DNA of 36,995 nt from Nitrosopumilaceae archaeon (GTDB taxonomy: Archaea > Thermoproteota > Nitrososphaeria > Nitrososphaerales > Nitrosopumilaceae). Of this stretch, positions 32,726 through 35,064 are shown piece after piece (position 1 is the stretch's first letter; the number at the start of each line of letters is the position of its first letter). Under the pieces are notes generated by a model. The model ran no database searches. It was not told where the DNA came from and saw only the letters and a program-made list of their open reading frames with translations. The stretch spans positions 1 to 36,995 of the forward strand of contig JASHNR010000032.1 in assembly GCA_030041535.1 (NCBI GenBank). Direction: 5' to 3'. The position numbers and the translations under genes are program-made.

Positions 32726-33379
32726 TCAGGAGTGTTTTTCATGGTTTGATATGGTTTCTAGGGCTGCCCTTTTTGCAGCCAAGTCAGCAATTTTTTTATT
32801 TTCCGCACTTGCTATTATTACAACGTCTCCATTTTCAGGCTGTAACTTTTCAACTAGTGCAAAAGTTAGTTTTTGATCCTTAATTGGCATGTCATAACTT
32901 TTGTCAGATGTGAAGAGTTTGTCGTCTCGAAATACAAGCGTGGTTGCTCCAAGTGCACCTATCTTTATTGCAGCATCCCTCTGTTCAATACCGCTTCCCA
33001 CATCTTTTGCCAGTCCCTTGACAAGTATTGCGTGGTTGAACTTGCCAAGTGTGATTGAGCATTCTTTGATATCATTTTCTGCAGGCATGGCTTCATTTAG
33101 TTTTGAAAATAAGGACCTTCCTTTGTTTGTCAGCGTCATACCAGCTTTTGACGTAGTAATGAGTTCATTCATCTTTAGATGTTTCACAAGAGTCTTGATG
33201 GAACCCTCTCCAAGACCTACTTCTTCTATTAAAATGGCTCTGCTTGCTCGCATATTCACGTGTACTACCTGAAGTACTTTGAAGATGTGTGCAGGCTCAA
33301 AGGATAGTACCCTACTTGGGTAATATCGCTGTGCTACTTTACCAAGTAGCTTGACGACATTGTGCATCTGGGGTTCCAT
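32726..33379 (-). CDS. Winged-helix protein (DUF4443-like), candidate regulator
   Basis: A 217-residue protein. Residues about 25-95 look like a winged helix: a helix pair with GLGEGSIKTLVKHLKMNELITTSKAGMTLTNKGRSLF, where the last part is the wing. The C-terminal half (about 110-210) alternates strands and helices (ILVKGLAKDVGSGIEQRDAAIKIGALGATTLVFRDDKLF). This resembles the archaeal DUF4443 domain; the name is tentative. The gene begins 22 nt after the NiCoT metal transporter on the same strand, so it is a candidate metal-responsive regulator of the operator at 34322-34383. That role is inference. No His/Cys metal site is obvious. Confidence 0.7.
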   Translation of the reverse strand: MEPQMHNVVKLLGKVAQRYYPSRVLSFEPAHIFKVLQVVHVNMRASRAILIEEVGLGEGSIKTLVKHLKMNELITTSKAGMTLTNKGRSLFSKLNEAMPAENDIKECSITLGKFNHAILVKGLAKDVGSGIEQRDAAIKIGALGATTLVFRDDKLFTSDKSYDMPIKDQKLTFALVEKLQPENGDVVIIASAENKKIADLAAKRAALETISNHEKHS

Positions 33380-33401: not shown

Positions 33402-34292
33402 TTAATGCTGGTGGTCATGGCCCTGATGATCATCGTCATGGGAATGGTCGTGGTCATGGTGATGGTCATGGTCATGTGTTGGTGGTAATGGTTCTTTTTT
33501 TCTGTTTCTTATAGCGTATGCGTAGGTAAATGTAATTGCTAGTACAGATCCTGCCAAAGCAAATCCAAGCCAATCTGGGAATATGGTTAAGGGGGTAAGA
33601 GTCTCTATGACCGAGTCGGCGCAGACTATTAGGGCGACTGCACTTAGTGCATATGACAGGGATTTCATGCCGCCGGTACCTAGTATTCTGATCATTGCGG
33701 CTCGGAACCCCCAGCTGTCCACTGTATCCATGCATACCATGCCAACTGTAAATATTCCTACCATCACTAGTGCTGCTTCGATTCCTTCTGTAGCTGATGC
33801 AGTTGCCGCCATACCTAAGGCGGCCAATTGGGTTGCGGTGTCAAACCCGAGGCCAAAGATAATGCCTACCATATAAGATGAGCGTATCATGCCAGCGTTC
33901 TTGAGTCTGGGCAACAACTTGGTAAGTAGTATGGCTGCAGATGTCTTACCATATTTTCTCATTGCATAGAAGTTAGTTATGCCAATAACTGCTAGTGCTG
34001 CAGCGCCGAGTAATCCTGTTGATATTGAAAACATTCCGCCTTGATCGATTAGATTTGCAGCTACATACACCATGAGAAGTAACTCTGCAAGAACTGATGT
34101 CATGTGACCCAGACTAAATCCGGTGCCAACAAATCTTGTGCTTTTTACCGCATTATGGTATCTAATGAGATTGTCTATTGCAGTGATATGGTCAACATCA
34201 AATGCATGACGTAATCCCAAGGCAAGAAGGGACACTCCCGTTGCTGACCATATTAAGGTACTAACATCCATGTTCTGACCTCCCTGCATCAT
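33402..34292 (-). CDS. Nickel/cobalt transporter, NiCoT family, with His-rich tail
   Basis: A 296-residue polytopic membrane protein. The NiCoT signature HX4DH is HAFDVDHI at His29, Asp34 and His35 in the first conserved helix. SLGHMTSV and FGLGFDTATQLA are the next family motifs. About eight hydrophobic segments are visible. The C-terminal 25 residues are almost entirely His and Asp, a metal-binding tail after the last helix. It imports Ni2+ or Co2+, cofactors of urease and of cobalamin. The ATG at 34292 or, less likely, an internal ATG at 34271 is the start. It leads a minus-strand row with a winged-helix gene. The promoter carries nested inverted repeats (34322-34383). Confidence 0.93.
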   Translation of the reverse strand: MMQGGQNMDVSTLIWSATGVSLLALGLRHAFDVDHITAIDNLIRYHNAVKSTRFVGTGFSLGHMTSVLAELLLMVYVAANLIDQGGMFSISTGLLGAAALAVIGITNFYAMRKYGKTSAAILLTKLLPRLKNAGMIRSSYMVGIIFGLGFDTATQLAALGMAATASATEGIEAALVMVGIFTVGMVCMDTVDSWGFRAAMIRILGTGGMKSLSYALSAVALIVCADSVIETLTPLTIFPDWLGFALAGSVLAITFTYAYAIRNRKKEPLPPTHDHDHHHDHDHSHDDDHQGHDHQH

Positions 34293-34321
34293 GTTGAATG
34301 TAAACCACGAAATTCACGATC

Positions 34322-34383
34322 CATTGTGTCATTCCAACATTATTTAAACTGTTGGATAGTTTATCCAACAAAAAATCACAATG
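34322..34383. promoter_or_regulatory. Nested operator in the NiCoT promoter
   Basis: Three layers are visible. The outer arms CATTGTG (34322-34328) and CACAATG (34377-34383) are exact inverted repeats. CCAACA (34334-34339) faces TGTTGG (34350-34355). GTTGGATA (34351-34358) and TATCCAAC (34362-34369) form a perfect 8-bp dyad with loop GTT. The half-sites alternate at about 15-16 nt spacing. A TTTAAA box (34344-34349), plausible TATA for NiCoT on the minus strand, lies inside the first dyad. This suggests metal-dependent repression. Confidence 0.65.
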
Positions 34384-34464
34384 TAATGATTGTCTGATAA
34401 AAGTTACAAAATATTGGAAACCAAAAACCTCTGGTTTAATATTGCTGATTGTTAAACGCGGTTT

Positions 34465-35064
34465 GTGTTTGAACTAATTGTATTTTTCACTTCATTCAAG
34501 TTTATTTTTGTTGAAGGTGGGGAGCAAGTATTAGTAGGTATAGGTACAGCAAATAGAATCGGATTACGAAAAACTCTGAAAATTACAGCATTTGGGTTTT
34601 CAGTTGGAATGATTCTGTATTTTGTTTTTCTAAAATATGCAGGTTTTGTTCCTACTAATATTCTTGAAGTTGCTCTTGGTATTGGATTATTATTCTTCAG
34701 TAGCTTGATGTTTAAGGAATTTTTTGAGAATGAACACGAAGAAGATACCAAAGAATACAAGGTAACCTATTTTTACATTGTAATGGTTGAAGCAATAGAA
34801 AATTCTGTTGCATTGGCTACATTCAGTTTGATACAGTTAGAAAGTGCATTGATAGGGTTTGCTGTTGCTATTGGTTTTATTATTGGTTTATTGTGGCTAG
34901 GAATTGTCAAGAAAGTACCATTGAGAATAACAAGATTAGTAGCTGGAATACTTCTTACAAGTACGGCAATACCACTCATTCTTTACGGTCTTGGTGTTTT
35001 TACACCAGATTTTATTCACTGGCTTATACCACCACTAACGCCGCCCCACGGTCTTTTACAGTGA
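34465..35064 (+). CDS. Two-repeat membrane protein, possible metal ion exchanger
   Basis: A 199-residue membrane protein with about six transmembrane segments in two similar halves. The first half has FVEGGEQVLVGIGTANRIG and the second MVEAIENSVALATFSLI: each puts an acidic E-x-x-E pair in a helix, as expected from an internal duplication. This is reminiscent of UPF0016/GDT1 cation exchangers and of the uncharacterised COG4280 proteins; neither assignment is certain. It starts with GTG, with a TTTAATATT box (34435-34443) about 26 nt upstream. It is divergent from the Ni/Co transporter across a 172-bp gap that contains the operator. Confidence 0.75.
   Translation: MFELIVFFTSFKFIFVEGGEQVLVGIGTANRIGLRKTLKITAFGFSVGMILYFVFLKYAGFVPTNILEVALGIGLLFFSSLMFKEFFENEHEEDTKEYKVTYFYIVMVEAIENSVALATFSLIQLESALIGFAVAIGFIIGLLWLGIVKKVPLRITRLVAGILLTSTAIPLILYGLGVFTPDFIHWLIPPLTPPHGLLQ

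Follow-up and report, generated by a model that had tools for sequence, protein, structure and literature searches.

The question raised by this locus is what reads the inverted repeats crowded into the promoter of a nickel/cobalt transporter gene, nicoT, and what the arrangement serves. The window, the whole stretch of 36,995 nucleotides that was analysed, is contig C26 of an archaeal genome of 1.83 Mb. Of the named relatives found, Candidatus Nitrosotalea sp. TS is the closest, with 93% identity in a protein encoded beside nicoT, and the host is accordingly a Nitrosotalea-like ammonia-oxidising archaeon. Ammonia-oxidising archaea make B12 and depend on cobalt supply. The NicoT protein scored 70.2 bits against the NicO transporter domain PF03824 (cut-off 27.7) and carries the NiCoT signature HX4DH (RHAFDVDHITAID, HAFDVDH in translation), as well as a His-rich C terminus; its likely start codon is the ATG at 34271, the longest reading frame opening at 34292. 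The adjacent gene, located 22 bp downstream on the same strand, encodes a protein of the DUF4443 family, matching PF14544 over positions 1–100 of 100 (E 9.9e-30, 102.9 bits, cut-off 27) and possessing an N-terminal winged-helix DNA-binding domain recognised by CggR_N (39.2 bits, cut-off 30). The features of the locus are collected in the table.

Table. Features at and around the nicoT promoter (coordinates of the window)
Feature	Coordinates	Strand	Remarks
DUF4443 gene, candidate regulator (CggR-like winged helix + DUF4443 domain)	32726–33379	−	PF14544, CggR_N, fold, linkage
nicoT, NicO-family Ni/Co transporter	33402–34292	−	Pfam PF03824, E 2.4e-19
Shine-Dalgarno-like GGAGGT	34278–34283	−	precedes likely nicoT start codon at 34271; from sequence
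nicoT transcription start, approximate	34316–34322	−	estimated at about 33 nt from core, as in cbtB promoters that seem leaderless
Outer 7-bp repeat, left arm CATTGTG	34322–34328	+	not conserved
Extra half-site TCCAACA	34333–34339	+	downstream of TATA box; absent from 11 related promoters
nicoT TATA box TTTAAATAA	34340–34348	−	3 nt downstream of operator core; spacing common to most of 109 related sites
Operator, perfect 21-bp palindrome	34350–34370	−	17-bp core TTGGATAAACTATCCAA at 34352–34368, nicoT strand
Outer 7-bp repeat, right arm CACAATG	34377–34383	+	not conserved
Divergent membrane protein gene	34465–35064	+	PF16955 (OFeT_1), E 6e-4, weak, below cut-off

The sequence-only reading of this region had described three nested layers of repeats, and all the repeats that it listed exist. 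The innermost is a perfect 9-3-9 inverted repeat, TGTTGGATA-GTT-TATCCAACA, lying just ahead of the TATA box of nicoT, and the half-sites TCCAACA/TGTTGGA are present at 34333–34339, 34350–34356 and 34364–34370, with the TATA box between the first two; successive centres are separated by 17 and 14 nt, and not by a regular 15–16 nt as had been stated. The 11 related nicoT promoters examined all keep the inner dyad and the TATA box, and all lack the extra half-site and the outer CATTGTG/CACAATG repeat; what is conserved is therefore one compact operator, the inner dyad. An operator at this promoter was correctly recognised, whereas the nesting is not a conserved property and the idea of cooperative half-sites loses its support. 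The palindrome alone is not rare: a perfect short-spaced dyad with 9-bp arms arose in 63 of 3000 simulated 172-bp intergenic stretches (about 2%), and the window contains three of them, compared with 0–4 per simulated window. The exact dyad pattern, allowing up to three mismatches, occurred once in the window against 0.07 expected. The inner dyad counts as a feature because it is conserved, and not because it is palindromic.

The extent of this conservation was determined by pattern scans of genomes, with the reversed pattern as control. When 250 genomes of the host's family were scanned for TTGGATAAACTATCCAA with at most one mismatch, 57 were found to contain it, against 3 for the control, and the operator pattern reached 13 of the 22 genera of the family; in a second archaeal family it was present in 47 of 70 genomes, against 5 for the control. 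The recurring form was TTGGATAAAC[C/T]ATCCAA followed by a TATA box, at the promoters of nicoT, cbtBA, cbiX and csoR. In a set of 109 distinct TATA-associated sites, the bases T1, G3, G4 and A5 and the mirrored T13, C14, C15 and A17 were invariant in at least 98%, and the operator was mostly separated from the TATA box by 3 or 4 nt. The genes downstream belonged to few classes: nicoT, cbtB-cbtA (cobalt transporter), csoR (metal repressor), cbiX and a few uncharacterised ones, the DUF4443 gene being located in or beside these units. Sites in the second family were located at cbtBA, nicoT and csoR; the DUF4443 gene lies there on the other side of the motif and is transcribed away from cbtBA or nicoT, and in two genomes the site separates nicoT from a cbiX-DUF4443 pair facing it. 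In the host's own genome (G000), a second exact copy of the 21-mer stands at a promoter that leads into an RcnA-like/CsoR cluster, and cbiX, which encodes the cobaltochelatase of B12 synthesis, is preceded by a symmetric variant. A weaker copy on contig C22 (L066:1937-3777) is followed by a small cysteine-rich ORF, DUF6659 and MetE-like genes; the Pfam match of the MetE-like (B12-independent methionine synthase) gene after this own-genome site is weak. Sites with two or three mismatches in the own genome (forward 9 and reverse 13, versus 6 and 5 for the reversed pattern) were set aside as chance-like at the 8 loci checked outside C22, such as L336 and L337, which have no TATA context. Matches to CTGGATAAACTATCCAATC in about ten genomes (L045, L046, L051–L053, L056, L060, L061, L094 and L096) were also rejected, as they fell within a coding gene with no TATA box.

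The protein most likely to read the dyad, as judged from gene neighbourhood and co-occurrence, is the winged-helix DUF4443 protein encoded just downstream of nicoT. NiCoT loci were chosen by protein similarity, blind to the motif, and the dyad, which had been expected upstream of the NiCoT genes of relatives, was found at 8 of them and was absent from 22. The DUF4443 gene was adjacent in all 8 dyad-bearing loci and in none of the 22 dyad-free ones (Fisher p 1.7e-7; 2 of the 22 are distant homologs, giving a conservative count of 20), and the earlier suspicion of this DUF4443-like neighbour as the regulator proved to be well directed. Additionally, 110 regions upstream of cbtB were read, the dyad being called at two or fewer mismatches in 12 core positions; it was present in 43 of 49 regions from genomes with DUF4443 and in 6 of 61 from genomes lacking it. 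This linkage is more than a clade effect, because it is kept within the single genus g11, where the dyad at cbtB was found in 22 of 26 genomes with DUF4443 and 0 of 24 without (p 1.7e-10; counts taken without full phylogenetic correction). In genus g19, the dyad at cbtB occurs in one genome, G064, which is likewise the sole genome there to bear DUF4443. Several g11 genomes lacking DUF4443 presented a decayed left half-site and an intact TATA-proximal half, as would be expected if the promoter also makes use of the near half. The DUF4443 gene was not detected in seven genomes with the dyad at cbtB (G009, G043, G051, G061, G069, G071 and G083), among which G061 and G069 are both 99% complete, and another protein may therefore read the dyad in such genomes. 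Genome G138 has five operator sites, and DUF4443, nicoT and cbtB genes were not found in it; an assembly gap is likely, since nicoT and cbtB are missing as well.

We consider it probable that the dyad serves as operator for a set of cobalt-acquisition genes, and that the DUF4443 protein represses this regulon at cobalt or corrinoid sufficiency. The operator, its targets and its linkage to DUF4443 were obtained by computation; we infer direct binding by DUF4443, repression over activation and the identity of the effector. A dimer of the protein would bind TTGGATA-N3-TATCCAA, which directly precedes the TATA box and whose final bases would double as the BRE needed by TFB; with sufficient cobalt, or a corrinoid made from it, binding would block TFB. 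The genes repressed in this manner would be the cobalt importers nicoT and cbtBA, the cobaltochelatase cbiX and the CsoR-type metal repressor; the DUF4443 gene would also regulate itself, because it lies in or beside these units. Since the dyad recurs at cobalt genes, almost always in DUF4443-bearing genomes, it is very likely, on these sequence comparisons, a switch matching cobalt uptake to need.

Repression was preferred on account of the position of the operator. In those cbtB promoters that seem to be leaderless, with the core and the ATG separated by about 33 nt, the operator ends in an AA at −34/−33, which is the position of the BRE adenines (PMC4158304), so that a bound protein should compete with TFB. 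Moreover, two deep lineages have the dyad on the downstream side of the TATA box, just before an ECF-transporter-like gene, and a site downstream of TATA is the usual position of archaeal repressors (PMC4158304). Both observations stand against the opposite sign, according to which DUF4443 would be an activator recruiting TFB at cobalt scarcity; this reading can appeal to the location of the site just upstream of BRE/TATA, as for TrmBL1/Tgr at activated genes (PMC4158304), but the coincidence of the operator end with the BRE itself makes it unlikely, though still worth weighing.

As for the signal, the targets of the presumed repressor (cobalt importers, a cobaltochelatase and a metal repressor) suggest that the operator responds to metal, and a corrinoid effector is equally possible. 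The cobalt-linked DUF4443 proteins have in common an N-terminal His (H6) and a C-terminal HEKH motif (H213, H216), and these three histidines are candidate metal ligands. H6 and HEKH are absent from the DUF4443 proteins of deeper lineages, which do not adjoin cobalt genes, and both are lost in the marine g11 DUF4443 clade, in which the operator is kept. The idea that DUF4443 constitutes an archaeal family of cobalt-import regulators, binding Co(II) itself through the N-terminal His and the HEKH tail and shutting import, is advanced tentatively, with doubt outweighing confidence. If true, DUF4443 would act as a protein-based sensor of cobalt in the control of an importer, and import would be tied to efflux via control of CsoR. 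The AlphaFold2 model of the protein was confident (pLDDT 90, pTM 0.89), and its best Foldseek match in the PDB was 2p8t, PH0730 from Pyrococcus horikoshii (E 3.4e-10, TM 0.65/0.74), while the N-terminal domain matched the DNA-binding domain of CggR in its operator-bound structure; about 110 columns of the protein also aligned weakly with aspartyl-tRNA synthetases.

Readers other than DUF4443 were also weighed. The dyad might be recognised by another helix-turn-helix protein, either a small one often encoded near cbtBA or a DtxR-type regulator. The small HTH gene was found near the motif in 14 loci, including those of G071 and G083, which have the dyad and no DUF4443, and DtxR-type operators have an 8-3-8 layout shared by the dyad. 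Nevertheless, the small HTH gene was adjacent in just one dyad-bearing NiCoT locus (L098) and the dyad closely tracks the presence of DUF4443, so that such a reader is improbable and the small HTH protein is a weaker candidate than DUF4443. A CsoR/RcnR-family repressor reading the dyad and regulating its own gene is still less probable: the dyad precedes csoR genes in the host's family and in one genome of the second, and the host genome carries one csoR, but PF02583 was found in only 32 of 250 genomes and 4 of 22 genera, compared with 13 genera for the dyad. With a distribution too narrow for a common reader, CsoR behaves as a target. Operators before csoR-type genes were recorded at L062, L073, L076, L080, L081, L083, L085, L088, L090, L101 and L370, mostly adjoining an RcnA-like NicO gene, and the import regulon may control this efflux repressor.

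The least probable of the protein readers is NikR, which is also encoded here and would use the dyad to make nicoT respond to nickel. NikR_C proteins were found in the host genome and in 48 of 61 sampled genomes of the family, and NiCoT proteins can carry nickel. However, NikR sites are inverted repeats of 27–28 bp with N13/14 spacing (PMC545781), whereas the dyad is compact, with half-sites about 10 bp apart from centre to centre; in the 8 nicoT promoters that bear the dyad, the best match to the NikR-type repeat had 4–6 mismatches in 14 positions, in agreement with the early remark that this is not a NikR-type site. Genera g3, g12 and g19 have NikR and no dyad at cbtB, with G064 of g19 as the one exception, and a perfect GTATTAC-N14-GTAATAC was found in 3 of 20 dyad-free NiCoT paralogs and in 0 of 8 dyad-bearing ones. 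Spacing, distribution and paralog operators were all against NikR as the common regulator. NikR-like dyads were observed upstream of the NiCoT paralogs without a cobalt operator at L015, L017 and L034 (and L021); Ni-type and Co-type NiCoT paralogs appear, from these promoter sequences, to be split by operator. Finally, a cobalamin riboswitch was rejected, as the region gave no match to an Rfam cobalamin aptamer or other riboswitch at E ≤ 1 save a chance snoRNA.

Cobalt import is usually thought to be under B12 riboswitch control. Bacterial B12 riboswitches share largely the same targets as the operator described here (cobalt importers, cobaltochelatase and metE, one own-genome site preceding a MetE-like gene), but the present element is a DNA operator upstream of TATA. 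The NikR regulon likewise controls a Ni/Co permease through an inverted repeat, although of the long N13/14 type (PMC545781), which was found here at other NiCoT paralogs. The cobalt sensors CsoR/RcnR, CoaR and NmtR resemble the proposed system in acting on cobalt homeostasis by one-component regulation, but they govern efflux (in one case an enzyme) and not import (PMC7689651, section 5.2). TrmB, TrmBL1 and Tgr also use a palindromic operator beside BRE/TATA or at the start site (PMC4158304), although they are sugar regulators with unrelated motifs. No protein-based cobalt sensor regulating a cobalt importer had been identified according to a 2021 review (PMC7689651). DUF4443 was not mentioned in the literature searched, a body of text that leaves out most subscription journals, and PH0730 was named there only in a transcription-factor catalogue; PH0730, a member of the DUF4443 family with the same two-domain architecture by sequence and fold as the candidate regulator, is annotated only as a hypothetical protein, in contrast to the cobalt-linked role proposed here. 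As far as could be checked, the operator represents a known kind of one-component regulon with a regulator family and a proposed role that are undescribed, as the sequence-only reading had supposed of the regulator. Since the protein family can be named, the operator is defined and its targets are listed for two families, control of cobalt import becomes directly testable; the DUF4443 domain gains a likely function, and a testable candidate is provided for a protein-based cobalt sensor at an importer.

Some further observations were made at related loci. Genes for an uncharacterised protein family (SPSIAISFVNGSL...) immediately follow the operator at loci of two archaeal families (L066, rc 3761; L088:5670; L368). 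In the deep lineages (L322:4728 and L326:1629) the dyad stands after the TATA box and before the start codon of a gene for an ECF S-component-like protein, close to DUF4443; in L326 this gene is followed by a DUF4430 gene. In another lineage, at L378 and L386, two operator-like copies stand in tandem before cbtB, TTGGATAAACCATCCAG and then TTGGACAAACTA..., and may act cooperatively. The divergent membrane protein gene of the window has its own likely TATA box at about 34434–34443, some 63 bp away from the operator, and adjoins nicoT in this genome only, among the NiCoT loci compared, so that its control by the same operator, raised as a possibility by the sequence-only reading, is only conjectural. 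An OFeT_1-like gene of this type was also found near the operator-bearing csoR loci L058 and L080, and the divergent gene may therefore be metal related, though it is no conserved neighbour of nicoT.
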